Shown here in pieces: positions 12,887 through 31,962 of a stretch of 64,000 nucleotides of DNA (the stretch's first letter is position 1; the number at the start of each line of letters is the position of its first letter). The notes under the pieces were generated by a model that saw only the letters and a program-made list of their open reading frames with translations, did not search any database and was not told where the DNA came from. Source of the DNA: Asanoa hainanensis. GTDB taxonomy: Bacteria > Actinomycetota > Actinomycetes > Mycobacteriales > Micromonosporaceae. The stretch spans positions 62,001 through 126,000 of the forward strand of contig NZ_FZPH01000018.1 in the NCBI RefSeq assembly GCF_900188485.1. Direction: 5' to 3'. The position numbers and the translations under genes were made by a program.

Positions 12887-14911
12887 TCAGGACTGGGCCA
12901 GCTTCAGTGTGTCGGGCAGGCCCGTGACGGTGGCCGAGCCGTCCGCGCCGACGACCACGTCGACCGAAGCACCGCCGATGCGCAGGCCGCGGGCGGTTAC
13001 CGCGCCCAGTGGCGCGCCCTCCAGCGGTGTCAGGGCGACCTTGCCGGCTGGCACGTCGGGGCGGAGGCCGACGGCCGCGTGCAGGAGGGTGATGCCGGCT
13101 GCTGCGGCCCAGGCCTGGGGGCGGCAGGCGGCGGGGTAGGGGACCGGGCGGCCCAGGGCGCCTCGGTCGTCGCCGCCGAAGAGTTCTGGGAGTTGGTAGT
13201 CGAAGGACTCCGCTGCGGCCAGCAGGCCTTCCGTGAGCGTCGCGGCCGCGGCCGGGTGGCCCGCGCGGGCCAGGCGGTCGATGACGATTGCCGTGTCGTG
13301 GGCCCAGACCGAGCCGCAGTGGTACGAGAGTGGGCTGAAGGCCGCGTCGTGGGTCGACATCGTGCGCAGGCCGAAGCCGCCGGCCAGGGCGTTCGATGCC
13401 AACAGGTCCGCGACCTGGGCTGATTCCTTCGGCGTCAGCAGGCCCGTGCCCAGCAGATGGCCGATGTTGCTGGTCAGGGAGTCGACCGGGCGCTTCGAGC
13501 CGTCCAGCGCCAGAGCGGGGTGCGCGCCCGCCGGGCCGTCGACCCAGAACGTGTCGCGGAACCGGGTCGCCATCTGCTCGGCGTACTCCCGCCAGCGCGG
13601 GCCACCAGGGCGGCCGAACGCGTCCAGCAGGGCGGCCCCGTGCAGGGCGGCCTCGTACGCGTAACCCTGCACCTCGACCAGCGCGATCGGTGCCGTGGCC
13701 AACGCGCCGGACCGGAAGCGGATCGAGTCGCCGGAGTCCTTCCAACCCTGGTTGGCCAGCCCGCGCCCGCTCTCGTCGATGTACTCGAGGAAACCGTCGC
13801 CGTCCGCGTCCCCGTAGGCCGACAGCCAGCCGAGCGCCGCCTCCAGCGCGGGCAGCAGCGACTCGACGGCCGCCGGCGACATGCCCCAGCGCCAGGCGTC
13901 GTGCAGCAGCGAGATCCACAGCAGGGTCGAGTCGACGGAGCCGAAGTACGCGGCCGGCAGTTGCGCCTGCGTGTCGGCCCGCCGCAGCTCGTGCAGGATC
14001 TTGCCCGGCGCCTGGCCGGTGTCGCCGTCGACGACGGTGCCCTGGTGCGCGGCCAGCACCCGCAGCGTGCCCTCGGCGATGTCGGTGCCGAGCGGCAGCA
14101 GCATCCGTGCGGCCCACAGGCTGTCGCGGCCGAACAGGGTCAGGTACCACGGCACGCCCGCGCCGAGGAACGTGTCGGTGGCGCCGGCGGACAGCCGCAG
14201 CCGCAGCGACTCCAGGTCGTCCAGGGAGCGCGCGGCCAACCGGGCGAGCCGGCGGTCGTCGGCGGCCACCGTGGGGCGGGCCCACTCGACCGGCGCGGCG
14301 GGCTCGCGGACCAGGGCCGCCGGGTCGGTGACCCGAAGCTGCCAGGAGACGGTCACGGAGTCGCGGGGGGCGACGGTCACGGGCCAGTGCAGCGTGCCGT
14401 CGTCGCCGGCCGTCGCGCCGGGCGCCGTCACGGTCACCGACACGTCACCTGCGGTCCACGACAGCCCGGCGCGGACCGCGCCACCCGAAACGGTCCGACC
14501 GGACTTGACCGGCGAGATCGGCGCGAGGTCAGCGTCGAGCGCCAGCGACAGCTCCGTGGACACCGCGTCAGCGGCGGTCGACGTGACGGTGATGGTCTCG
14601 TCGAGACCGGTCGGCACCAGCCGCCGTTCCCGCGTGACCCGCACCGTCGGGTCTGGACCCGGGTCGCCGAGCCAGCGGGCAAGTCCCACGAAAGCCGTCG
14701 CGCCCGGGCCAAGCGGAGAATTCGCCACAGGCTCGACAGATCGCCCATCGAGCAGGAGCTCCGCGCGGCTCAGCACCCGTACGTCGGCATGGAACATCCC
14801 CTGCACCCCGACCGCCCGGATCTGGCCTGACGGTTCGCCCAGGACGCTGGCCGGCGCCCGTACCGTCGAGATCAGATCGTGGAGCAGCGGTTGAAGGTTG
14901 CGGTCTGGCAC
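12887..14911 (-). CDS. Amylo-alpha-1,6-glucosidase (glycogen-debranching-like) protein
   Basis: A 674-residue protein with an N-terminal beta-sandwich (glycogen-debranching N-terminal type) and a C-terminal (alpha/alpha)6 catalytic domain. Family features include YLTLFGRDSLWAARMLLPLG, GQAPGKILHELRR, and SGRGLANQGWKDSGDSIRF, which carry acidic active-site candidates. It should act on oligosaccharides in the cytoplasm, since no signal peptide is seen. GTG 14911 is chosen because AGGAG precedes it by six bases; an ATG at 14938 would add nine residues. It is divergent from the LacI gene with shared operators. Exact sugar unknown. Confidence 0.85.
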   Translation of the reverse strand: MPDRNLQPLLHDLISTVRAPASVLGEPSGQIRAVGVQGMFHADVRVLSRAELLLDGRSVEPVANSPLGPGATAFVGLARWLGDPGPDPTVRVTRERRLVPTGLDETITVTSTAADAVSTELSLALDADLAPISPVKSGRTVSGGAVRAGLSWTAGDVSVTVTAPGATAGDDGTLHWPVTVAPRDSVTVSWQLRVTDPAALVREPAAPVEWARPTVAADDRRLARLAARSLDDLESLRLRLSAGATDTFLGAGVPWYLTLFGRDSLWAARMLLPLGTDIAEGTLRVLAAHQGTVVDGDTGQAPGKILHELRRADTQAQLPAAYFGSVDSTLLWISLLHDAWRWGMSPAAVESLLPALEAALGWLSAYGDADGDGFLEYIDESGRGLANQGWKDSGDSIRFRSGALATAPIALVEVQGYAYEAALHGAALLDAFGRPGGPRWREYAEQMATRFRDTFWVDGPAGAHPALALDGSKRPVDSLTSNIGHLLGTGLLTPKESAQVADLLASNALAGGFGLRTMSTHDAAFSPLSYHCGSVWAHDTAIVIDRLARAGHPAAAATLTEGLLAAAESFDYQLPELFGGDDRGALGRPVPYPAACRPQAWAAAAGITLLHAAVGLRPDVPAGKVALTPLEGAPLGAVTARGLRIGGASVDVVVGADGSATVTGLPDTLKLAQS

Positions 14912-14920
14912 GAAATCTCC

Positions 14921-14932
14921 TGTGAACGTTGG
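14921..14932. promoter_or_regulatory. Degenerate LacI-type operator half
   Basis: TGTGAACGTTGG shares GAACGTT with the palindrome at 15017-15028 and lies just upstream of the glycosidase start, where a repressor would block transcription. Confidence 0.4.
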
Positions 14933-14987
14933 CGCCATCTTGACAGAGCCGGGATGGCAGCGGCAGAGTGCGAAACAACCCTGCAAC

Positions 14988-14999
14988 TTGAACGATCCA
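14988..14999. promoter_or_regulatory. Second degenerate LacI-type operator
   Basis: TTGAACGATCCA matches the perfect box downstream in its left half. Its position between the divergent genes fits joint control. Confidence 0.5.
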
Positions 15000-15016
15000 A
15001 TAATGCACTTTCGACT

Positions 15017-15028
15017 TTGAACGTTCAA
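15017..15028. promoter_or_regulatory. Perfect palindromic LacI-type operator
   Basis: TTGAACGTTCAA is a perfect 12-base palindrome with the central CG typical of LacI-family operators. It lies 18 bases before the LacI start codon and shares the 135-bp intergenic region with two related boxes, so the regulator probably represses itself and the glycosidase gene. Confidence 0.7.
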
Positions 15029-15046
15029 GCCCCGTGGAAGGTACGA

Positions 15047-16030
15047 ATGCCGGAGAAGGTCACCATCGCCACCGTGGCGGCGCATGCCCAGGTATCCCGG
15101 CAAACGGTGTCCAATGTGCTCAACAGCCCGCACCTGGTGCGGGAGGAGACGCGCGTCCGCGTGCAGGAGGCGATCGCCACTCTCGGTTACCGGATCAACC
15201 AGGCCGCGCGCCAGATGCGCACCGGGCGTTCCCGACTGCTCGCCGTGCGTATCGAACCCACCCGCGACGGCATCAACGGCTCGGTGCTCGACCGGTTCCT
15301 GCACGGTCTGACGTTCGCGGCCGCCGCGGCCGGCTACCGGGTGATGCTCTACACGGCCGACGACGACGGCGACGAGATCAAGACCTTCGAGGACCTGCTG
15401 GCCTCGCACGAGCTCGACGGCTTCGTGCTGACCGGCACCGACCACGGCGACGTCCGCACGTTCTGGCTCGCCGAGCGCGGCGTCCAGTTCGTGACGTTCG
15501 GCCGCCCGTGGGACGAGCCCGAGCGCCACTCGTGGGTCGACGTCGACAACGCCGACGGCACGGCCCAGGCCACCCGGCGGCTCATCGAGACCGGGCACCG
15601 GCGCATCGGGTTCATCGGCTGGCCGGCCGGCTCCGGTGTCGGCGACGACCGGCGCGACGGCTGGCAGCGCACGATGAAGGCCTACGACCTCGACCCGGCC
15701 GGCCTCGACCGCGGCGCGCCCGACGGCATCGCCCAGGGCGCGGAGTGCGCGCGCGACCTGCTCACCACGCCGGAGCCGCCGACCGCGTTCGTCTGCGCCA
15801 GTGACTCATTGGCGCTGGGCGCCCTCCAGGCCGCCGGTGGCCGCAGCGCGGTCATCGGCTTCGACGACACCCCGGTCGCCGAGGCGATCGGGCTGACCAG
15901 TGTCAGCCAGCCGCTGCCGGACGCGGCGGCCCGCTGCATCGACCTGCTCATCGACCACCTCGACGGCAACCCCGTCGGCACCAGCCAGGTGCTGCTCAAA
16001 CCGTCCCTCGTAGTCCGTACCACCGCTTAA
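15047..16030 (+). CDS. LacI-family transcriptional regulator
   Basis: A 327-residue regulator with the N-terminal LacI helix-turn-helix (VTIATVAAHAQVSRQTVSNVLN), hinge region around LGYRINQAARQM, and a periplasmic-binding-protein-like effector domain (LEDLLASHELDGFVLTGTD, GHRRIGFIGWPAG, ASDSLALGALQAAG, VIGFDDTPVAEAIGLTSV). It should bind a sugar or sugar phosphate. ATG 15047 has GGAAGG (15036-15041) in front and begins right before the HTH. It stands between the glycosidase (divergent) and the ABC sugar genes (same strand, 26 bases downstream), so local control is likely. Confidence 0.93.
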   Translation: MPEKVTIATVAAHAQVSRQTVSNVLNSPHLVREETRVRVQEAIATLGYRINQAARQMRTGRSRLLAVRIEPTRDGINGSVLDRFLHGLTFAAAAAGYRVMLYTADDDGDEIKTFEDLLASHELDGFVLTGTDHGDVRTFWLAERGVQFVTFGRPWDEPERHSWVDVDNADGTAQATRRLIETGHRRIGFIGWPAGSGVGDDRRDGWQRTMKAYDLDPAGLDRGAPDGIAQGAECARDLLTTPEPPTAFVCASDSLALGALQAAGGRSAVIGFDDTPVAEAIGLTSVSQPLPDAAARCIDLLIDHLDGNPVGTSQVLLKPSLVVRTTA

Positions 16031-16056
16031 ACCCCCCTCAACCCAGGAGTTACGAC

Positions 16057-17304
16057 ATGAGACGCAACCGGTTCCGCAGTGGCGCGGTAGCGGTCTTCGC
16101 CGCCGGCACGCTCCTCGCCTCCGCGGCGTGTGGCGACAGCTTCGACGACGGCGGCGAGGCCGCTCAGCAGACGTCGGGCCCCGCCGCACTGCAGATCCTG
16201 ATCGGTTCCTCGGGCGACGCGGAGACCGCCGCCGTGAAGGACGCCGCGGCGGCCTGGGCGACCAAGAGCGGCAACACCGCCACGGTCACCCCCGCCCAGG
16301 ACCTGACCCAGCAGCTCGGCCAGTCGCTGGCCGGTGACAACCCGCCGGACGTGTTCTACGTCGACGCCGGCCGGTTCACCGACTACGCGAGCGTCGGCGC
16401 GCTGGAGCCCTACGGGGACAAGGTCGACAACCCGGACGACTTCTACCAGAGCCTCAAGGACACGTTCACCTTCGACGGCAAGTTCTACTGCGCGCCGAAG
16501 GACTTCTCCACGCTGGCGCTGGAGATCAACACGGACCTGTGGACCAAGGCCGGGCTGACCGACGCCGACATCCCGACCACCTGGGACCAGCTCACCGCCG
16601 CCGCGCAGAAGCTGAAGGCCAAGGGCACCATGCCGCTGGCGGTGGCGGACACCCGTGACCGGGTCGGCGCGTTCATGGTCCAGTCCGGTGGCTGGATCGT
16701 CAGCAAGGACGGCAAGCAGGCGACGGCCGACAGTGCGGAGAACGTCGCCGCGCTGACCTACGTGCAGACGCTGCTCAAGCAGGGTCTAGCTTCCTACCCG
16801 AAGGCGCTGGACGCCGGCTGGGGCGGCGAGGCGTTCGGCAAGGGCAAGGCCGCCATGACGATCGAGGGCAACTGGATCAAGGGCGCCATGACCAACGACT
16901 TCCCGAACGTGAAGTACACGGTGCACGAGCTTCCGGCCGGCCCCAAGGGCAAGGGCACGCTGTCGTTCACGAACTGCTGGGGCATCGCCGCCAAGAGCAA
17001 GTTCAAGGAGCAGGCGATCGACTTCGTCAAGGCGATGACCTCGGTCGACCAGCAGATGACGTACGCCAAGGCGTTCGGTGTGATGCCGTCCCGTGAGTCG
17101 GCCCGTGACCAGTACACGGCCGCCTTCCCGGCGGACAAGGCGTTCATCGACGGTGCCGAGTACGCGCAGGGCCCGGTCAACGCGCCGAAGATGGACAGCG
17201 TCCTGGCCGACTTCGACGCCTCGCTGAACACGCTGGCCAAGGCCGACCCGAAGACGCTGCTCGGGACGCTGCAGAAGAACACTCAGGCGACGCTGGGCGG
17301 CTGA
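16057..17304 (+). CDS. Extracellular sugar-binding lipoprotein (ABC type)
   Basis: A 415-residue solute-binding protein of the carbohydrate uptake type. The N-terminus has a basic start, a hydrophobic core (AVAVFAAGTLLASAA) and a cysteine (ASAAC-GD) fit for lipid attachment, although Ser at -3 is not the usual Leu. The body shows LAGDNPPDVFYVDAGRF, IPTTWDQLTAAAQKLKAKGT, AAMTIEGNWIKGAM and NCWGIAAKSKFKEQAIDFVK, typical of the family. AGGAG (16048-16052) precedes the ATG. It is followed by two permease genes. Ligand probably a glucoside or maltodextrin, judged from the linked glycosidase. Confidence 0.92.
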   Translation: MRRNRFRSGAVAVFAAGTLLASAACGDSFDDGGEAAQQTSGPAALQILIGSSGDAETAAVKDAAAAWATKSGNTATVTPAQDLTQQLGQSLAGDNPPDVFYVDAGRFTDYASVGALEPYGDKVDNPDDFYQSLKDTFTFDGKFYCAPKDFSTLALEINTDLWTKAGLTDADIPTTWDQLTAAAQKLKAKGTMPLAVADTRDRVGAFMVQSGGWIVSKDGKQATADSAENVAALTYVQTLLKQGLASYPKALDAGWGGEAFGKGKAAMTIEGNWIKGAMTNDFPNVKYTVHELPAGPKGKGTLSFTNCWGIAAKSKFKEQAIDFVKAMTSVDQQMTYAKAFGVMPSRESARDQYTAAFPADKAFIDGAEYAQGPVNAPKMDSVLADFDASLNTLAKADPKTLLGTLQKNTQATLGG

Positions 17305-17308
17305 GTAC

Positions 17309-18475
17309 ATGTCGACCGTTACGACCGCCTCCGCGGACCGGGATGACCGGTCCGCGGGTGGCGGCCGGCCGGCCACCGGCGGTCGCGGACCGCGGCAGCG
17401 GTTCGGCAGGTGGCTTCGCTGGCCGGGGCCTTTCCGCGGCGGGATCAGGGGCAACGAGCGGATCGCGGGCTGGCTCTTCGTGGCGCCGGTCATCGTCCTG
17501 CTCGGCATCTTCTTCCTCGCGCCGATCATCATGGCGTTCTGGGTGAGCCTGACCGACTGGCAGGGCCAGGGCAGCCCGTTCAAGTCGGGCGTGCCGTTCG
17601 TCGGCGGTGACAACTACACGCGGCTGTTCACCGAGGACGGGCTCGCCCGCCGGGACTTCATGACGAGCATCCGCAACAACATCTACTACGTGGCGATCGT
17701 GGTGCCGGTGCAGACCGTCCTGGCGCTCGGCCTCGCCCTGCTGGTCAACAACCGGATGCTCAAGGGCAAGGGCTTCTTCCGTACGGCGTTCTACTTCCCG
17801 TCCGTGACGAGCTCGGTCGCCATCAGCGTCGTGTTCCTGTTCATGTTCGCCAACTCGGGCGCCATCAACGGGATCCTGTCGTTCTTCGGCATCGACGGAC
17901 CGGCCTGGTTCTCCGACGCGCGCGGCCTGATCCACCTGATCCTCGGCGTCTTCGGCGTGGACAACCCGCCGAGCGCGTTGGCCAACGGCGGACCCCTCGG
18001 CCTGACCTGGTGGGACTGGCTGTCGGGCCCGAGCGTCGCGATGTGCGCGATCATGGCGCTGGTCATCTGGACCACGTCGGGCACGTTCATGCTGATGTTC
18101 CTGGCCGCCCTGCAGAGCGTGCCGGTCTCGCTCGACGAGGCCAGCGAGCTCGACGGCGCGACCCGCTGGCAGCGGCTGCGCTACGTCACCCTGCCGCTGC
18201 TCAAGCCGACGATGTTCCTCGTGCTCACCCTCGGGCTGATCGGCACCTGGCAGGTGTTCGACCAGATCTACGTGATGAGCCAGGGCAACCCGGCCAAGAC
18301 CACGCTGACCCCGGCGTTCCTGTCCTACCGCACCGCGTTCAAGGACTTCGACTACGGGCGGGGCGCGGCGATCTCGTTCGTGCTGTTCCTGATCATCGTC
18401 GTGCTGACCCTGGCCCAGCGCTGGGTGATGCGCGACCGCGACGAGCCCCGCCGGAGGTTCCGATGGCTACGCTGA
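17309..18475 (+). CDS. Carbohydrate ABC transporter permease (MalF type)
   Basis: A 388-residue permease with six or more membrane helices (WLFVAPVIVLLGIFFLAPIIMAF first) and the cytoplasmic EAA loop EASELDGATRWQRLRYVTLPLLKP that docks the ATPase. The N-terminal 45 residues are Arg/Gly-rich and cytoplasmic. A roughly 60-residue insert between helices (FFGIDGPAWFSDARGLIHL...) is longer than in many MalF-type permeases of this group. The gene starts four bases after the binding-protein stop and overlaps the next permease. Confidence 0.93.
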   Translation: MSTVTTASADRDDRSAGGGRPATGGRGPRQRFGRWLRWPGPFRGGIRGNERIAGWLFVAPVIVLLGIFFLAPIIMAFWVSLTDWQGQGSPFKSGVPFVGGDNYTRLFTEDGLARRDFMTSIRNNIYYVAIVVPVQTVLALGLALLVNNRMLKGKGFFRTAFYFPSVTSSVAISVVFLFMFANSGAINGILSFFGIDGPAWFSDARGLIHLILGVFGVDNPPSALANGGPLGLTWWDWLSGPSVAMCAIMALVIWTTSGTFMLMFLAALQSVPVSLDEASELDGATRWQRLRYVTLPLLKPTMFLVLTLGLIGTWQVFDQIYVMSQGNPAKTTLTPAFLSYRTAFKDFDYGRGAAISFVLFLIIVVLTLAQRWVMRDRDEPRRRFRWLR

Positions 18476-19323
18476 CTCCCGCCAGGCGGCGCCGCCACGG
18501 GGGCATGGTCAACACCGTCGTCGGGTACGCCGTGCTCGTCTTCTTCGCGCTTGTCTTCATCTACCCGTTCGTCATCCAGCTCGCGAACTCCTTCAAGACC
18601 GAACCGGACGCGGCCGCCAACCCGTTGTCGCCGGTGCCGCAACCCTTCACCACGGACTCGTTCTCCAGCCTGCTCGGCGGCGACTTCCCGCTCTGGCTGG
18701 GCAACTCGGTCCTGGTCACGGTCGTCGTCACGGTCGGCCGGGTGTTCCTGGACTCGCTGGCCGGCTACGCACTTGCCCGACTCCGCTTCGGCGGCCGAAA
18801 GGCGATCTTCGCGACCATCGTGGCCATCATGGCCGTACCCGGCGTCGTGCTCTTCATCCCGAAGTTCCTGGTGCTGAACCAGCTCGGCATCTACGACACG
18901 TACACGGCGCTGATCCTGCCGTTGCTCGTCGACGCGGCCGGCGTCTTCATCATGAAGCAGTTCTTCGAGTCGATCCCGCTGAGCCTGGAGGAGGCCGCCC
19001 GGATCGACGGTGCCGGGGTGTTCCGGACGTTCTGGTCGGTGGTGCTGCCGTCGGCCCGGCCGGCGCTGATCACCCTGACCATCCTGTCGTTCCAGGGCAC
19101 GTGGAACGAGTTCCCGCACACCCTGGTGGCGGTCCAGGATCCGAGCCTGTTCACCCTGCCCCGCGGCGTCGCCAACCTGGTCTCGGGCTCGCTGGGCTCG
19201 GGCACGCAGTACCCGCTGAAGCTCGGCGCGGCCCTGCTGGCCACGATCCCGGTGGCGATCATCTTCGCGGTCTTCCAGCGCTACTTCGTGCGCGGTGCCA
19301 CGGAGGGCGCCGAAAAGGGATAG
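18463..19323 (+). CDS. Carbohydrate ABC transporter permease (MalG type)
   Basis: A 286-residue permease with about six helices (VVGYAVLVFFALVFIYPFVI first) and EAA loop EEAARIDGAGVFRTFWSVVL. ATG 18463 overlaps the MalF-type stop by 13 bases and has GGAGG at 18453-18457, so translation is coupled. No ATP-binding-subunit gene follows; in actinobacteria such importers commonly share one MsiK-type ATPase encoded elsewhere. Confidence 0.93.
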   Translation: MATLTPARRRRHGGMVNTVVGYAVLVFFALVFIYPFVIQLANSFKTEPDAAANPLSPVPQPFTTDSFSSLLGGDFPLWLGNSVLVTVVVTVGRVFLDSLAGYALARLRFGGRKAIFATIVAIMAVPGVVLFIPKFLVLNQLGIYDTYTALILPLLVDAAGVFIMKQFFESIPLSLEEAARIDGAGVFRTFWSVVLPSARPALITLTILSFQGTWNEFPHTLVAVQDPSLFTLPRGVANLVSGSLGSGTQYPLKLGAALLATIPVAIIFAVFQRYFVRGATEGAEKG

Positions 19324-19422
19324 TTCGATGATTGTCGCTTTTCGCGGGTCCGCCACCACGGGGCCTCGCGGAGCGTGAGGCGGCCGATACCGTGTTCACC
19401 GACTTCGATGCGGGGGCATGGG

Positions 19423-22400
19423 ATGCGCGGTCGATGGTGGCGTCATGGTGCTCTGGCGGCGGTGACCACGGTGTCGATCCTGGCCGTGCCGGGGCCCGCG
19501 TTGGCGGTCGACCCCGTGTCGGTCGACACCGTCACGCCGGCCGTGGTCGAGGCCGGCGCGGTCGTCGAGCTGCGCGGGCACGGCTTCACCGGTGCGTCGG
19601 CGGTCACGATCAACGGCGTGCTGGCCGCCACGACCGCGGTCGCCGACGACCGGATCACCGCCACCGTCCCCGCGGCCGCCACCTCCGGGCCGGTGCGGGT
19701 CACCGCTCCGGCGGGCACCGGAGCCTGGAGCAGCGACCTCTTCGTCGCCCGCTCCCCGTGGCGCGCCACCGACGTCGAGACGACGGCCCGGCTCACCCTC
19801 GACGCCCCGGCCACCGTGGCCGTGGCCACGGCCAGCAAGGTCGCCCTGCTCACCGTCACCACGGCGCCCGGCCGGCGGGTCGCGCTCGCCCTGCGCGACA
19901 GCACCTTCGGCTCGTCGACCAGCAACGCGCGGGTCTCGGTCTTCCGTCCGGACGGCACGACGGCGGTGTCGGCCACGGGATTCGGCACCAGCGGCGTCTT
20001 CCTCGAGCCGTTGCCGGCCGCCGACCTCGCGTACACGGTGCTGGTCGACCCGCAGGGCACTGCGACCGGCCAGGTCGTCGTCACGGCCCACGACGTGCCG
20101 GCCGACGCGCTCGTGCCGGGCAGCGCCGACGGGTCGACCGTCACCGTCGCCACCACGGTGCCGGGCCAGAACGGCGGGGTGACCTTCGCCGGCAAGGCCG
20201 GGCAGCGGGTCAGCATTGCGGTGAGCGGTTCGACCTACGGCTCGTCCGGCGTGACGGTCGGCGTGCGCCGGCCCGACGGCACAAGCCTGGTCTCCGCGGT
20301 CACGGTCAGCACGAGCGCGTTCCTCGACCTGTTCGTCCTGCCGGCCGCCGGCACCTACACGGTCGCGGTCGACCCGGTGCGGGCGGCCACCGGGCAGGTC
20401 GCGATCCGCCTCTTCGACGTGCCGGCCGACGCCACGGTGGCGGGCGCCACCGACGGGGCGGCGCGCACCGTGACCACCACGACGCCCGGCCAGAACGGCG
20501 GCGTCGAGTTCACCGCGACCGCCGGGCAGCGGGTCGGCATCCGGGTGCCGAGCCACACGTACGGGTCCGGATCGGTGTCGCTGTCGGTGCGCCGGCCCGA
20601 CGGCACCAACCTGGTCGGCGCCACGACCGTGTTCGCGTCGCTGTTCGTCGAGCCGGTCACCATCCCGTCCGCCGGCCTTTATTCGGTCGTGGTCAACCCC
20701 GCCGGCGACCGGGTCGGCGCCGCTGTCGTCCACCTCTACGACACCCCCGCCGACGCGGTCTTCACCGCGACACCCGGTGGTGCGGCGGTGAGCGCGACCG
20801 TCGGCACGCCGGGCCAGAACGCGCGGGTGGAGTTCGCCGGCGCGGCCGGGCAGCGGGTCAGCTTCCGCGTGCCGTCCCACTCGTTCGGCTCGGGCAACGT
20901 CTCGATCGGGGTACGCCGGCCCGACGGCACGGTGCTCGTCGCGGCGCAGACCGTCTTCAGCTCGCTGTTCACCGAGCCGGTGACCCTGCCCGTCGGCGGC
21001 ACCTACGCGGTCGTCGTCGACCCGGCGGGCGCGAGCACCGGCGCGGCCACGGTCGAGGTGCACGACGTGCCGACGGGCTCGCCGGTCGAGGCCGTCGTGG
21101 GCGGGCCCGCGGTCACCCTGGCGACCACGGTGCCCGGGCAGAACGGCAGCGTGACGTTCGCGGCGGTCGCCGGGCAACGGGTGAGCGTGCGGCTGTCCGC
21201 GAGCACCTACGGCACGTCCGGCGCCCGCGCCACGCTGCTCGCACCCGACGGCAGCGTCGCGGTCGCCGCGACGACGTTCTCCGCCGCGGGGGTGCTGCTC
21301 GGCCCGCTCGACGCGGTGGCCGGGGTCTACACCGTCGCCGTCGACCCGCAGGGCTCGGCCGTGGGGCAGGTGACGGTGCTGGTCAGCGACGCGGGCCAGG
21401 TGGTGTTCACGGCGACGGTCGACGGCGGCCCGGTCGTCGCCGCCACCACCGCGCCCGGGCAGGACGCCGTGGTGCGGTTCCCGCTCGCGGCCGGGCAGCG
21501 CTACATCGTCACCGCGCTGGAGAGCACGTACGGCGGCTCGTCCAACGTGCGGGTCTCGCTGCGGGCGCCTGACGGCACCGTGCTGGTCGCGCCGACCGGC
21601 GTCGCCTCCAACGGCATCTATTTCGACACGCGGGTGTCGACCGTCGCCGGCGACCACTCCGTGCTCGTCGACCCGCAGGGCAGCGCCGTCGGCCAGATCG
21701 CGATCGAGGTGCGGCTCGTCCCGGCCGACCTCACCGCGGTCGCCGCCGTGGGCGGCGAGCCGGTCACGCTGCCGGCCACCGTGATGGGGCAGGGCGCGGT
21801 CGTCACCTTCGCGGGCACCGCCGGCCAGCGGGTCGCGCTGCTGGCCTCCGGCAGCACCTACAGCGGCTCCAACGTGCGCGTCGGTGCCACGTCCCCCGAC
21901 GGTTCGGTGCTGTTCGGCACGTCGAGCGTCGCGTCCAACGGCATCTTCTGGAACCCGGTCGCGCTCCCGGCCGACGGGACCTACCAGATCCTGGTCGACC
22001 CGCAGTCCACCGTGGTCGGTCAGCTGACCCTGCGGCTCTACCTGGTGCCGGCCGATGTCACCGGGGTGGCGACCGTCGGTGCGCCGGCGTCCACGGTGGT
22101 CACCTCGACGCCCGGCCAGAACGCCACGGTGACCTTCGTGGGCACGGCCGCGCAGCGGGTCTTCGTGCGCGTCGGGCGCACCTCCAGCACGGGCAGCGCC
22201 GCGGTCGAGCTCCGCGCGCCCGACGGCACCGTGCTGCGGTCGGCGACCACCTCGGGCACGACGCTCGACCTCGCGGCGATGGCGCTGCCGGCGACGGGCG
22301 GCTTCACGGTCGCCATCGACCCGCAGTCGACCGCCGTCGACACGTTCACCGTCCAAGTCTTCGCCGTGCCCGACGACACCACGGTCGCCGCGACGCTCGA

Positions 22401-25400
22401 CGGCCCCGCCGTGATCGCCCGCACCACCCAGCCGGGCCAGGTCGCCACGGTGACGTTCCCGGCACCGGCCGGTCGGCGCGCGTTGCTGACCGTCACCCCC
22501 GGCACGGTGGCCGACGGCACGACGATCGAGGGCTCGGTCGCGCTCACCCTGCGCGACCCGGCCGGCACCGTGCTGACCTCCGGCACCATCACCGCCACCG
22601 ACGAGCGCGTCCTCGGCCCGGTCGACCTCGGGTCCGGCGGCACCTACAGCCTGACGCTCGACCCCACCGGCACCCGCTTCGGCCGCTTCACCGTGCAGGT
22701 CTTCGAGGTCCCGGCCGCCGTGCCGGTCCCGTTGACGGTCGGTGGGCCGGCCGTCGAGGTCGCCGTGCGCACGCCCGGCGCGGTCGGCGCGGCCACGTTC
22801 ACGGCGGCCGCCGGCGACCGGGTGTGCGTGTCCGTGCCGACCTCCGGCTTCAGCCGGGCCGGCGTCGCCGGCAGCGCGGCGGTGTCGCTGGTCGACGCCG
22901 CCGGTGGCGTGCTGGCCAACGCCACCGCGAGCGGCTCGGCCGTCTTCCTGGAGCCGCTGACGCTGGCCGCGGCGGGCACCTACCGGGTGCTCGTCGACCC
23001 GGCCGGGGCGGCGGTCGGCGCGGCGTCCGTGGCCGTCTGCGAGGTGCCCGCCGACGTCACCGTCGCCGGTGCCCTGGGCGCGGCCGTGCGCAGCGTCGAC
23101 CTGGCCGTCGGGCAGCGGGCCGACCTCGCCTTCAGCGGCACGGCCGGGCAGGCGATTCGCGCCGGTCTCCCGGTCGCCGCGGGCTTGGCTCGGCTGTCGA
23201 TCCTGCGCGCCGACGGCACGCAGGTCTGCACGCGCACCAACGCCTCCGCCGGCAGCGTGCTCGCCTGCGCGCTGCCGGCCGCCGGCGACTACCTCGTGCG
23301 GGTCGACCCCAACGGCAGCATCGCCGGAGCGTTCGGCGTCGAGGTCTACGAGGGCACCGGCTCGCCCCGGATCAGCGGCGGCACGACGGCCTGGTCGGCC
23401 ATCGCGACGCCGGGCGTGAGCTGGTCCACCGACAGCGCCACGGCGATCGACGGCTACGCGGTGGTCGTCGACTCCGTCGCCGACACGGTGCCGCCACCCG
23501 CGATCAGCCAGCCGGGCGCCTCGCTCAGCCGCACCTACCCTGACGGCGTGAGCTGGGTCCACGTCCGCGCCCACGGCACCGACGGGTCGTGGGGCGCCAC
23601 CGCGCACCGGGCCGTCCGCGTCGACACCGTGACACCAGTGGTCAACGCGCTCACCTCACCCAGCCACCCCGATCCGGCCGCGCCGACCGGCTCGCTCGAC
23701 CTGCGCCTGGCACTCGGTGCCACCACCGGGCCGTCCGGCGTCGCCGGCTACTCGATCAAGGTGTCGCGCACCGACGGCGAGGTGCCCGGCACCGCGATCA
23801 CCACCACGGGAAACGCGTACGAGACCCGGCTGGCGGGCGAGGGCGAGTGGTTCGTCGCCGTGGTCGCCCGCAGCGGGGCCGGCAAGGCCAGCGCGCCGGT
23901 GCGGCTGCGGGTGGTGGCCGACCTGGCGGCCGACGCGCCCACGGTGACCAGCGCGACCCATCCGGTCCCGGGCACGGGCTATCCCGCCGGCCCGTTCGTC
24001 GCGACGTGGCGGCTCGGCCCGACGGCGACCGCGCCCGTGGGCGAGTCGGTCGGGCTGGTCGACGGTTGGTCGGTCGTGCTCGACACCGCGGCGGCGACCG
24101 TGCCCGCCGCGACCGTGACGACCACCGAGGCCCGCTTCTCCGCCGAGCTCGCGCCCGGCACGTGGTGGCTGCACGTCCGCGGGCACGAGGTGTCGGGCGC
24201 GTGGAGCGCCACGGCGCACTTCCGCGTCGTCGTCGTGGCCGCCGACGAGTTCCGCTTCACCGCGCCCGCCGCCGGCACGACGCTGTGGGACGACGTCTCC
24301 GTCGCGCTCGACTGTGCCGGTGCCGGTGGTCCCGTCCGGGTGGAGGCCGCCCGCGACGGCGGCGCCTGGCACGTGATCGGCCAGGACGCCTGCACGGTTC
24401 TCTGGGAGACCGACGTGACCGTGGCGGGCGTGCCGTCCTGGCCGGACGGGCGCTATACGGTGCGGGCGCTGGTCGGCACCTCGGTGCGGGCCAGCACCAC
24501 GGTCACGGTCGACAACGCGGCCGACAGCATCGGGCGGCTCGCGGCCGACTACGCGGCGGGCCTGCTCGACCTCGAGCAATATGTGGGCCACCTGTTCGAC
24601 CTCGCCACCGGTGGCGCCGGGTTGCCGGCGCGCTACGTGGACGGCGCGCCCGGGCTGGGCGACCCCGAGGCGGCGCTGGCGGCGGCGCTGGCGCTCTGGG
24701 AGTCGTTGAGCGCCGACCAGCGCGCCCGCCTCGGTGACCCGAACACGCCGGTCGTGCTGTCCTCGCCGCCGGCCGGTGCCCGGCTCGCGCCCAACGAGTG
24801 CGGCTGGCTGGTGCGGCTCCGCGCGAAGCTCTACGACTGCCGGGCCGAGTCGACCAACTTCGTCGTCTACTACGACTCCGGGCACGTCGGGCCGACCTCG
24901 CCGGGTGCCTCGCGTCCCGACTGGGTCGAGAAGATGATCGGGTCTTTGGAGCTCAGCCGCGGCATCTACGGCTCGATGGGTTACCGATTGCCCGGCTATC
25001 GCCTCACGGTCGCGCTCGACCCCACGTTCGCGCTGGGTGACAACAAGTCCGGCGTCGCCTTTCCGTCGCTGCCCAAGTGCCCGTTCCTCTGCGGGGAGAC
25101 GAGCCCGCTGCTCCTGATGTCCTCCGACCCGACGATCTCGAAGTACCTGCCGCACCACGAGTTCTTCCACTTCGTCGAGTACGAGTACATCGACCACCGC
25201 CGGTTCGCGGAGTTCGGCATGAACTGGTGGATGGAGGCGTCGGCCGAGTGGGCGGCGCACCAGGTGCACGAGCGGTCCGGGGCGTCCGACGTCCCCGACG
25301 ACGAATATCGGGGCTACTGGTCCAACTTGGACGACTTCCTCGACGCGTCCGACGAGCGCTTCGACGAGGGCAACTCCGTCGTCCTGCCCGGCGGTCCGGA

Positions 25401-26898
25401 GTACGGCGCGTTCATCGTCGCCGAGTTCCTCGAAGAGCGGTTCGGTGACGACGCGATCCGCCAGACGTGGGGTGACCTCGGCGGGCTGTGGTCGACTCCG
25501 CGCGGTGCGATCCGCGAGGCGATAGAGGCGGGCGGCTCCTCGTTCGGCACCGAGATCGACGTGTTCCGGCAGTGGGCGTACGTGTTCGAACGCGGCGGAT
25601 CGTCCGTCGGCTTCACCGACTCGCACGCGCAGCGGTGGCGAGCCAGCCTCGGCTCGGCGTTGCAGCCGCCGCGTCAACAGGTGACGATCTCGCAGAACAA
25701 CGGCGCTGGTCCCGAGGCGTTCCCCGGCACCTACTACGTGCAGCAGAGCGGCGCCAAGTACGTCCAGATCGTCAACCCCAACCAGGCCGAGGGCGACCTC
25801 ACGGTGACCTGGGACCCGAAGACCGATCACGACGTACGGTTCAGCGTGCTGCGCCTGGACGACTTCGACCGGCCCACCGCGGGCTGCGGCGCGGCGCAGC
25901 GCCTGCTCGCCCGCGTGCCGCTGACGGTCGCGTTGACCGACGCGTGCCCCAAGGCGGTGCTCGTCATCGTCAACGCCGACGATCCGGGCTTCTACGGCAC
26001 CTGGGCGATCGGCGACTGGAGCGTGCGGTTCCAGCGCACCGCCCAGGTGCTCTCCAACAGCACGATCGAGATCGGAGTCGGGCCGTACGGCAGCCTGATC
26101 TCCAACGCGATCGGCATCCGGCTGGCCGGCAACGCCGACAGCGAGGTCATCCGGCGCGGCTGCTTCTGCGAGGGCTGGGGCGTCGCGCACGGTCCCTTCG
26201 GCGGCTCGGTCACCGACGCGACCGGCGTCGACGGCCTGACCCTGTCGTCGTTCGTGGCGTCGGGCGACACCGCGACGTCGATGGTCGACCTGACCGGACC
26301 GACGGGCATCACGGTCGCCACTTATGTTTCGCCCTCGATCGACCCCAACCTGTTCCAGCTCAAGGTCACTGTCCGGAACGTCAGCTCCCCGATCCACCAC
26401 TCGGTCCACTACCGCCGGGCGGTCGACTGGGATCTGCTACCGGACGTGAGTGGCTTCTACACGACGTTCGTGCACCGCACCGGCGACATCGGATATGTCA
26501 CCGGTGTGACCAACGACGGCTTCGCCGACCCGAACCCGCACAACGCGTTCACCGACCTCGGCGCCTCCGGCTTCTTCACCGACTTCGGGCCGGCCAACAC
26601 CGGCGCGTTGATCGACCTGGACCTGGGCACGTTCGCCACCGGCGAGGCGAAGACCTTCGACCTCTACTACGGCATCGCACCCACCGAGGCCAGGGCGACG
26701 GCTGCCGTGGCGGCGGTCGGTGCCCAGTTGTACGCGCTCGGCCAACCCGGCACCGCCGACGGGAAGACGCTCGGCACTCCGTACACGGGGATCTTCGCGA
26801 TCGACGGCAGCGGCCTGCCGGCCCCGTCGCCGCGGTTGGTCGCGCCGCAGGACAACCGGGCGCCCTCCGTGCCCGGAGTGCGGCGGGAGGCTTCGTGA
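19423..26898 (+). CDS. Giant secreted repeat protein with putative zinc metallopeptidase domain
   Basis: About 2,491 residues. Residues 1-28 form a signal peptide (basic start, LAAVTTVSILAVPGPALA). Then: an IPT/TIG-like domain (about 32-105); eleven tandem repeats of about 97-113 residues (about 118-1310) with cores like PGQNGGVTFAGKAGQRV, RPDGT, GTYTVAVDP and DVPAD; fibronectin-type segments (1310-1600); an Ig-like module (1605-1700); a peptidase-like region (1810-2060) with HEFFH at 1912-1916 and NWWMEASAEW (E1938 or E1942 as third ligand); and beta-rich C-terminal domains with GCFCEGWG (2247 on) and HYRRAVDWD (about 2329). ATG 19423 follows GGGGG; ATG 19408 and 19375 are alternatives. Likely a gluzincin acting outside the cell; substrate unknown. 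Confidence 0.8.
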   Translation: MRGRWWRHGALAAVTTVSILAVPGPALAVDPVSVDTVTPAVVEAGAVVELRGHGFTGASAVTINGVLAATTAVADDRITATVPAAATSGPVRVTAPAGTGAWSSDLFVARSPWRATDVETTARLTLDAPATVAVATASKVALLTVTTAPGRRVALALRDSTFGSSTSNARVSVFRPDGTTAVSATGFGTSGVFLEPLPAADLAYTVLVDPQGTATGQVVVTAHDVPADALVPGSADGSTVTVATTVPGQNGGVTFAGKAGQRVSIAVSGSTYGSSGVTVGVRRPDGTSLVSAVTVSTSAFLDLFVLPAAGTYTVAVDPVRAATGQVAIRLFDVPADATVAGATDGAARTVTTTTPGQNGGVEFTATAGQRVGIRVPSHTYGSGSVSLSVRRPDGTNLVGATTVFASLFVEPVTIPSAGLYSVVVNPAGDRVGAAVVHLYDTPADAVFTATPGGAAVSATVGTPGQNARVEFAGAAGQRVSFRVPSHSFGSGNVSIGVRRPDGTVLVAAQTVFSSLFTEPVTLPVGGTYAVVVDPAGASTGAATVEVHDVPTGSPVEAVVGGPAVTLATTVPGQNGSVTFAAVAGQRVSVRLSASTYGTSGARATLLAPDGSVAVAATTFSAAGVLLGPLDAVAGVYTVAVDPQGSAVGQVTVLVSDAGQVVFTATVDGGPVVAATTAPGQDAVVRFPLAAGQRYIVTALESTYGGSSNVRVSLRAPDGTVLVAPTGVASNGIYFDTRVSTVAGDHSVLVDPQGSAVGQIAIEVRLVPADLTAVAAVGGEPVTLPATVMGQGAVVTFAGTAGQRVALLASGSTYSGSNVRVGATSPDGSVLFGTSSVASNGIFWNPVALPADGTYQILVDPQSTVVGQLTLRLYLVPADVTGVATVGAPASTVVTSTPGQNATVTFVGTAAQRVFVRVGRTSSTGSAAVELRAPDGTVLRSATTSGTTLDLAAMALPATGGFTVAIDPQSTAVDTFTVQVFAVPDDTTVAATLDGPAVIARTTQPGQVATVTFPAPAGRRALLTVTPGTVADGTTIEGSVALTLRDPAGTVLTSGTITATDERVLGPVDLGSGGTYSLTLDPTGTRFGRFTVQVFEVPAAVPVPLTVGGPAVEVAVRTPGAVGAATFTAAAGDRVCVSVPTSGFSRAGVAGSAAVSLVDAAGGVLANATASGSAVFLEPLTLAAAGTYRVLVDPAGAAVGAASVAVCEVPADVTVAGALGAAVRSVDLAVGQRADLAFSGTAGQAIRAGLPVAAGLARLSILRADGTQVCTRTNASAGSVLACALPAAGDYLVRVDPNGSIAGAFGVEVYEGTGSPRISGGTTAWSAIATPGVSWSTDSATAIDGYAVVVDSVADTVPPPAISQPGASLSRTYPDGVSWVHVRAHGTDGSWGATAHRAVRVDTVTPVVNALTSPSHPDPAAPTGSLDLRLALGATTGPSGVAGYSIKVSRTDGEVPGTAITTTGNAYETRLAGEGEWFVAVVARSGAGKASAPVRLRVVADLAADAPTVTSATHPVPGTGYPAGPFVATWRLGPTATAPVGESVGLVDGWSVVLDTAAATVPAATVTTTEARFSAELAPGTWWLHVRGHEVSGAWSATAHFRVVVVAADEFRFTAPAAGTTLWDDVSVALDCAGAGGPVRVEAARDGGAWHVIGQDACTVLWETDVTVAGVPSWPDGRYTVRALVGTSVRASTTVTVDNAADSIGRLAADYAAGLLDLEQYVGHLFDLATGGAGLPARYVDGAPGLGDPEAALAAALALWESLSADQRARLGDPNTPVVLSSPPAGARLAPNECGWLVRLRAKLYDCRAESTNFVVYYDSGHVGPTSPGASRPDWVEKMIGSLELSRGIYGSMGYRLPGYRLTVALDPTFALGDNKSGVAFPSLPKCPFLCGETSPLLLMSSDPTISKYLPHHEFFHFVEYEYIDHRRFAEFGMNWWMEASAEWAAHQVHERSGASDVPDDEYRGYWSNLDDFLDASDERFDEGNSVVLPGGPEYGAFIVAEFLEERFGDDAIRQTWGDLGGLWSTPRGAIREAIEAGGSSFGTEIDVFRQWAYVFERGGSSVGFTDSHAQRWRASLGSALQPPRQQVTISQNNGAGPEAFPGTYYVQQSGAKYVQIVNPNQAEGDLTVTWDPKTDHDVRFSVLRLDDFDRPTAGCGAAQRLLARVPLTVALTDACPKAVLVIVNADDPGFYGTWAIGDWSVRFQRTAQVLSNSTIEIGVGPYGSLISNAIGIRLAGNADSEVIRRGCFCEGWGVAHGPFGGSVTDATGVDGLTLSSFVASGDTATSMVDLTGPTGITVATYVSPSIDPNLFQLKVTVRNVSSPIHHSVHYRRAVDWDLLPDVSGFYTTFVHRTGDIGYVTGVTNDGFADPNPHNAFTDLGASGFFTDFGPANTGALIDLDLGTFATGEAKTFDLYYGIAPTEARATAAVAAVGAQLYALGQPGTADGKTLGTPYTGIFAIDGSGLPAPSPRLVAPQDNRAPSVPGVRREAS

Positions 26899-27254
26899 CC
26901 AGGCGGTGGGTGCTCGGGCTGGCCGCGGCGGTGGTGGTGCTGGTGGCCGCGTGCGGGCTGTGGCTGTGGGCGGTCGGGCCGCCGTTCAGCAAGGGCGAGC
27001 CCGACCCGGAGCTGGAGGTCCGCAACGAGCAGGCGACCCCGCTGACGGTCGTGGTGTCGACCGGCGGCGACAAGCGCCAGTTCGTGGTGCCCGCCGGCGG
27101 CGACCTCGGCATCCGGGTCAACGAGGAGTGCGGCACCGGCGAGGTGACGGCCCTCTCCGCCGACCGGGTGGTGGCCCGCCTCGACGACCCGTTCTGCACG
27201 GCGAAGACCTGGACCATCCACCCCGACGGCACCACCGAGCTGGTGGGCGGCTAA
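26895..27254 (+). CDS. Small membrane-anchored extracellular protein
   Basis: A 119-residue protein: basic start (VTRRW), hydrophobic helix (VLGLAAAVVVLVAACGLWLWAV), then an outside domain beginning PPFSKGEPDPELEVRNEQ with two cysteines (EECGTGEV and DPFCTAKTW) that could form a disulphide. The Cys in the helix (VAAC-GL) could alternatively be a lipobox. GTG 26895 overlaps the giant gene's stop (GTGA) and GGGAGG precedes it, so the pair is coupled. A decayed piece of a similar sequence lies at 31227-31290. I do not know the function. Confidence 0.75.
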   Translation: MTRRWVLGLAAAVVVLVAACGLWLWAVGPPFSKGEPDPELEVRNEQATPLTVVVSTGGDKRQFVVPAGGDLGIRVNEECGTGEVTALSADRVVARLDDPFCTAKTWTIHPDGTTELVGG

Positions 27255-31129: not shown

Positions 31130-31389
31130 CCGGCCGCCGGATCAGCGGATTGGGGCCTCGGACGAGCGGTCGACGGTGGCGTGGCCGTGCCGGGCGGTGG
31201 CGGCCTCGTACGGGTTCTGCGTGTGGGCCGTCGGCCGCCGTTCGGCAAGGGCGAGCCCGATCCCGAGCTGGTCGTGGGGTTTGGGGTGAGCGTTACCCGG
31301 CGCGGAGGTGACAGCGCAGCGAAGCGGAGCGGTGTCTGGCGGGAGCGACGGTCGCGCCCCAGGCGGACCCGAGTCAGGACGACCTTGGT
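31130..31389. pseudogene. Gene-free stretch with a remnant of the small anchored protein family
   Basis: Around 31227-31290 a plus-strand frame reads RRPPFGKGEPDPELVVGF, closely matching GPPFSKGEPDPELEV of the 119-residue protein at 26895, and the DNA is also similar. There is no intact start, membrane helix or domain here, so it is a decayed fragment. The second half (31316-31375) resembles an intergenic repeat at 59188-59247. Confidence 0.55.
31316..31375. repeat. Degenerate intergenic repeat, copy A
   Basis: Shares GCAGCGA, AGCGGTG, GCGGGAGCGA and CGGTCG.GCC blocks in the same order with 59188-59247. Both copies sit in gene-free DNA. Confidence 0.45.
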
Positions 31390-31962
31390 TTATTCGGGTT
31401 CGGGTTTGGCTGTGAGGTCGACATGCAGCCTCAGCTGGTAGACCAGCATGTCCTCGACGTCGAGGGCCCGACCGGCGCCATCGGGTGCCCAGCCGGCCGC
31501 GGTGAGGAACTTGCGGGTGGCCGCGTCGCCGTCGTAGGCCCAGGCGACTGCGAACGCGAACTCGTCCTCGCGCCACAGGTCGACGCTCGCCGCGAGTAGG
31601 CGGCTGCCGTGGCCGCGGCGGCCGAAGCGGGGCTCGACCAGCAGGTCCGTGATGGCCGCCACATCGTCCGGCAACGCCGGCTCCTCCGGGGCCAGCGCCT
31701 GCTCGTCGGCGGGGCCGGAGGCGGCAAAACCCACCAGATACGATTGTTCGGCCTGCTCGACGGCCACCAGCACCCGGTGCCGCGGCGACGGCGGCTGCTC
31801 GACCGCGGCGCTCCAGCGCTCGGCGATCCACGCCTCGTCGAGGTTGTCGAGCACGTGTCGGGGGAGCATCCGGCGATATGCGACCCGCCAGGTCGCGACC
31901 TGGATGCGGGCGATCTCGGCGACGTCCTCGGGACGCGCCGGGCGGACGTACCCGAGTGCCAT
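31390..31962 (-). CDS. GNAT-family N-acetyltransferase
   Basis: A 190-residue GNAT protein: VRPARPEDVAEIARIQVATWRVAY at the start, the acetyl-CoA loop FGRRGHGSRLLAASVDLW, and the C-terminal AATRKFLTAAGWAPDGAGRAL. Acceptor unknown. The start ATG (31960-31962) overlaps the plus-strand ATG of the next gene within one CATG. TAGGCT on the minus strand (31976-31971) lies eight bases upstream, so this mRNA is probably leaderless. Confidence 0.85.
   Translation of the reverse strand: MALGYVRPARPEDVAEIARIQVATWRVAYRRMLPRHVLDNLDEAWIAERWSAAVEQPPSPRHRVLVAVEQAEQSYLVGFAASGPADEQALAPEEPALPDDVAAITDLLVEPRFGRRGHGSRLLAASVDLWREDEFAFAVAWAYDGDAATRKFLTAAGWAPDGAGRALDVEDMLVYQLRLHVDLTAKPEPE

Follow-up and report, generated by a model that had tools for sequence, protein, structure and literature searches.

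A giant, probably secreted protein of Asanoa hainanensis with a predicted M30-like metallopeptidase domain

Layout of the giant reading frame

The window analysed here is a 64,000-nucleotide stretch of Asanoa hainanensis DNA (contig NZ_FZPH01000018.1, positions 62,001 to 126,000), in which a single open reading frame (ORF) at 19423..26898 of the forward strand encodes a giant multidomain protein of 2,491 residues that is probably secreted. No internal stop interrupts the frame, and its G+C content at the three codon positions (0.69/0.58/0.95, in a window with 72% G+C overall) has the bias of a coding frame and is typical of a real gene in this window, in agreement with the length given by a first-pass annotation made from the letters alone. 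All features of the protein described below lie on this strand. Judged by eye from the sequence, the N-terminus plausibly carries a signal peptide (residues 1–28, 19423..19506; MRGRWWRHGALAAVTTVSILAVPGPALA). This segment is followed by the IPT/TIG domain that the first-pass annotation had proposed, which Pfam places at residues 34–104 (19522..19734; PF01833, 22.4 bits against a cut-off of 20.9).

Residues 119–1296 (19777..23310) consist of eleven tandem beta-sandwich repeats of the PPC type, the first of which is partial. The hidden Markov model (HMM) of the repeat was built from ten units found by motif, which it therefore matches again by construction; the partial copy at residues 119–210 was found by the model itself (E = 1.4e-15). 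The earlier count of eleven repeats thus holds, and the repeats gain a type: Pfam names one stretch, residues 254–317, as PPC (PF04151, 42.5 bits against a gathering score of 25.9), and the remaining copies are assigned to the same type because the repeat HMM ties them to that stretch. The same model finds 12 copies in a relative, L025. Residues ~1310–1689 (23350..24489) probably form Ig-like or OmpL47-like modules. Fibronectin-like modules, as first proposed for residues ~1310–1690, were not confirmed, since Pfam, searched to E ≤ 1, lists no fn3 domain for the window protein; an OmpL47-type beta domain gives weak NCBIfam matches below cut-off in the relatives L025 and L024 (E = 0.0036 and 0.00088).

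The C-terminal third begins with a helical segment (residues ~1700–1789, 24520..24789) that forms helices in the predicted model and aligns in relatives free of the repeat row. It leads into a putative gluzincin peptidase domain of M30-like type, delimited by sequence and predicted fold (residues ~1790–2084, 24790..25674), a beta-sandwich delimited by strands of the model (residues ~2084–2205, 25672..26037), and an unnamed C-terminal domain with a CxCEGWG motif (residues ~2211–2470, 26053..26832). The GTG start of a small gene at 26895..27254 overlaps the TGA stop of the giant; its product has 119 residues and an N-terminal hydrophobic stretch.

Active site, predicted fold and family assignment

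The HEFFH motif occupies residues 1912–1916 (25156..25170) and NWWMEASAEW residues 1934–1943, with 21 residues between H1916 and E1938 (25234..25236), so that a position check upholds the gluzincin spacing read earlier. Conservation was followed in two alignments that overlap in organisms. A2 holds 20 rows, with 19 loci from a scan of the family Micromonosporaceae, and leaves weaker family matches (E above 5.4e-19) outside; A4 holds 19 rows and covers 18 of the 19 loci of a collection scan, with L055 left out because its ORF is a 186-residue fragment and with thirteen rows trimmed after the peptidase owing to differing C-terminal domains. H1912, E1913, H1916, W1936, E1938 and Y1994 (25402..25404) are invariant in both, and every row of each thus holds HExxH with the downstream glutamate. 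As the relatives share only 28–45% (A2) and 22–45% (A4) identity with the window protein, the motif is conserved beyond chance. Of the two glutamates put forward earlier as ligands, E1938 is retained; E1942 (E in 19/20 rows of A2 and 19/19 of A4) is replaced by N in the giant L006 and is the less likely ligand. W1935 is W in 20/20 and 15/19 rows and H1946 is H in 16/20 and 17/19, respectively. C1806 is present in all rows of both alignments and C1793 in 18/20 (the other two being gaps) and 19/19, a pattern that suggests a disulphide bond between them.

Both the gluzincin and the M30 fold were recognised in a predicted model of 802 residues: HExxH and E1938 sit in two successive helices, and among solved structures two lugdulysin (M30) entries match best, ahead of M1 aminopeptidases and M9 collagenases. 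The lugdulysin alignment extends to model residue 455, which is residue 2144 of the protein and lies in the beta-sandwich. The gluzincin reading of the first-pass annotation is thereby supported by the invariant residues, their placement and the best matches. Of the families it had named for comparison (M1, M4 and M48), M1 appears after M30, while M4 and M48 are not among the 50 structure matches listed, which excludes neither. The predicted fold is nearest M30, a family that had not been considered before.

The best named sequence match is NCBIfam NF045524, 'MXAN_6640 family putative metalloprotease', over residues 1912–2057, and all six relatives scanned match it below its cut-off. The relatives L029 and L051 pass the 27-bit gathering score of DUF6055 (PF19527) with 31.1 and 32.3 bits; no DUF6055 match was found in the A. 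hainanensis genome at E ≤ 0.001. The earlier statement that no named family fits therefore does not extend to the catalytic domain, as two named, uncharacterised families touch it or its relatives. With NF045524 below its cut-off and no DUF6055 listing, the giant is homologous to these groups rather than a formal member of either; by predicted fold and residues, it would work like an M30-type gluzincin. No mention of MXAN_6640 was found in 5.39 million PubMed Central papers, and DUF6055 appears in one, which terms the domain functionally uncharacterised and assigns a fungal protein that carries it to MEROPS family M106 (PMC11241649). No functional data were found for either family.

Among characterised proteins, lugdulysin (PDB ID: 7bb8) shares the predicted fold and 11% identity with the window domain. 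Set beside the aligned part of lugdulysin, the giant additionally has the TIG domain, the PPC row and the CxCEGWG domain. The M9 collagenases ColG and ColH are more distant: the peptidase fold is nearer M30, and no collagenase is among the PDB sequence matches. One such search returned just five chains of telomere proteins (E = 2.3 to 3), none of them meaningful, and a further one returned no matches. The domain order and number of the collagenases also differ from those of the giant.

Relatives, the small gene and apparent loss

At E ≤ 0.001, 31 of 354 family genomes, the source genome included, match the peptidase domain; four of these matches are weak or fragmentary (G210 and G211 among them), and none falls in the five other members of the genus. 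Three of the family matches lie in giants (L004–L006, 43–46% identity). The collection scan gave 19 loci in Hamadaea, Micromonospora, Streptomyces, Nonomuraea, Actinoplanes, Phytomonospora, Nocardiopsis and one unclassified bacterium. Of 396 genomes sampled from the phylum, 8 match the profile, again counting the source genome, five of them weakly (G370, G389, G426, G449 and G537). A tblastn search of a plasmid collection gave no match.

The full architecture, for which a search of other genomes had been proposed, was seen in L025, L024 and L023. L025 encodes it in one ORF of 2,609 residues (40% identity over residues 124–2487) with TIG and PPC domains named by Pfam; L024 has most of the giant in one 2,374-residue ORF, with its N-terminal part read in a different frame; and L023 is split over frames. 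Both splits may reflect assembly errors or decay. The four giants form one clade (support 100/99) in a 27-row tree with long branches for the window, L051 and L054.

The core occurs with various partners. The CxCEGWG domain follows the core of helical segment, peptidase and beta part in the window, L037, L040, L046, L047 and L052, and its motif is invariant in all six. Neither Pfam nor a PDB sequence search (E ≤ 1) gave a match for the domain, and parts of this region have low confidence in the model. Among 296 phylum genomes only its own matched, although Streptomyces and Nonomuraea proteins carry the domain. In L040, L046 and L047, the alignment to the window protein runs from residues 1703–1706 to 2444–2458 and Pfam lists no TIG or PPC domain, which suggests that the TIG–PPC row is an addition in the giants. 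Five actinobacterial proteins of ~1,000 residues (L026, L029, L032, L034 and L041) share the helical segment, the peptidase core and the active-site residues and likewise list no TIG or PPC; they end in a DUF5005/DUF4185-like part, with DUF5005 over cut-off in four (all except L032) and DUF4185 below cut-off in all five. DUF4185 is described as an endo-D-arabinanase family, GH183 (PMC10115798), and this link to arabinan is only a hint. In L054 the core is found with RTX repeats and CBM_4_9. In Nocardiopsis (L051:9554-12853) it is joined to a GDSL lipase and fn3.

Homologues of the small gene, at 33–36% pairwise identity, start across the stop of the giant in L023 and L024/L037, and none was found behind the giant of L025; the small gene thus accompanies three of the four giants, counting that of the window. 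Matches to it occur in 12 of the 354 family genomes, its own included, three of them weak (G045, G290 and G332), and it has no Pfam match over cut-off. Four homologues (L095, L096, L098 and L099) have no giant in the stretch fetched, and their giants may have been lost or never gained.

Within the genus, the solute-binding protein encoded upstream of the giant is kept in 5/5 genus mates (91–95% identity). In the four that span the site, no match of more than 150 columns to the giant's DNA and no peptidase-domain match was found; the contig of the fifth ends ~300 bases behind the permease. The closest, L072, keeps the upstream region and the first nine codons of the giant (L072 5275–5395 against 19331–19450; alignment score 120, against 35 for the best of 200 shuffles). 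Thirty bases after this kept 5' end, its sequence matches the window from 26902 onward, leaving a scar at L072:5275-5455 and a small gene with 82% identity to that of the window. The best reading of this arrangement is a single deletion that removed nearly all of the giant and spared the small gene; the neighbourhood is itself rearranged, the glyoxalase-type stretch now lying ahead of the scar. Giant-type fragments in three genomes of one other genus of the family are signs of repeated decay: L100 (residues 1995–2064), L101 (1680–1770, with a stop) and L097 (2421–2485, with a partner homologue). A search for mobile-element ends (19300–19430 against 26880–27000 and 31360–31440) yielded two overlapping inverted 9-mers, which are taken as chance.

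Directly upstream of the giant, the same strand encodes a LacI-type regulator along with the solute-binding protein and two permeases of an ATP-binding cassette (ABC) system, and a debranching-type glycoside hydrolase gene lies beyond them on the other strand; together (12887–19323) they are likely a glycan-uptake locus. Two glyoxalase-type genes and then a LuxR regulator lie downstream. When eleven neighbour proteins were compared with the stretches around the three other giants, which cover ~4 to 8 kb to each side of them, just a 48-residue LuxR piece recurred, in L023, so the neighbours give little functional evidence. The gene adjoining the giant in L025 (L025:13430-14470) encodes a protein whose start after the signal, HGAVSDPATR, resembles that of a chitin-type lytic polysaccharide monooxygenase.

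Proposed function and alternatives

The giant is proposed, with a probability of roughly 0.75, to be a secreted zinc endopeptidase with an M30-like (lugdulysin) fold that is carried behind a TIG domain and eleven PPC-type domains. In this proposal, H1912, H1916 and E1938 would hold a zinc ion, E1913 would act as the general base that activates a water molecule, and Y1994 would steady the transition state as the peptide bond is cut. Through numerous weak contacts, the PPC row may raise local affinity for a large extracellular protein or polymer, the helical segment in front of the peptidase is a possible prosegment, and the CxCEGWG domain would be an accessory module. Several results weigh against this proposal. 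The mean predicted local distance difference test score of the model is 68.5, and a plain Foldseek search gave just 6 matches that reach E 0.001, with the small beta protein PliG at the top and lugdulysin not among the 50 matches listed. At the sequence level, NF045524 scores 45.9 bits (46.8 in a second scan) against a curated cut-off of 140, neither Peptidase_M30 nor DUF6055 lists the window protein at E ≤ 1, and the search for biochemical data on close relatives found none. The Peptidase_M30 model also has no match at E ≤ 10 in the source genome, nor does it have one in 14 control genomes. Finally, the PPC-like fold is common to GOLD domains and PliG at tied Z, so this fold alone is no proof of binding.

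It is unlikely that the protein is instead an adhesin of the surface or matrix that works through its PPC row and uses the peptidase for nothing but its own processing (release or maturation). The TIG and PPC domains do make up about half of the protein, and the gene directly downstream encodes a small protein whose N-terminus is hydrophobic; however, the peptidase core occurs in proteins with no detected PPC or TIG, and no cell-wall sorting signal or C-terminal anchor was seen by eye in the sequence. An inactive homologue retained as a binding scaffold would fit the fact that no activity is known for the giant or its close relatives, yet the invariance of all five putative catalytic residues would be unusual for a dead enzyme and makes this the least probable explanation. 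Little more credible is a role in sugar uptake, in which the peptidase would strip protein from glycoproteins and the neighbouring LacI-type regulated ABC system would import the glycan. The adjacency of these genes and of the glycoside hydrolase favours it, but the link was placed low because shared neighbours are lacking in the fetched stretches and because the L072 scar follows a glyoxalase-type gene instead of adjoining the permease; moreover, the genus mates keep the binding protein where the giant is absent.

It is conceivable, at long odds, that the proposed peptidase and the small, probably membrane-anchored protein form a pair of secreted weapon and self-protection (or inhibitor) in soil actinobacteria that has been repeatedly gained and lost. 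The small gene would then be kept in some genomes after loss of the giant, in the manner of orphan protection genes. Least expected at the locus are the small gene that overlaps the giant and the giant's apparent repeated loss, which raise the question of the role and target of the pair. The giant, which some relatives have apparently lost, seems to combine known types of parts in a new way, and one peptidase core is found with partners as varied as a PPC row and CxCEGWG domain, a DUF5005/DUF4185-like part, a GDSL lipase, and carbohydrate-binding and RTX repeats. Through the predicted fold, an uncharacterised metallopeptidase group near MXAN_6640 and DUF6055 may be tied to a solved structure, that of lugdulysin, and candidate catalytic residues that can be tested are named.
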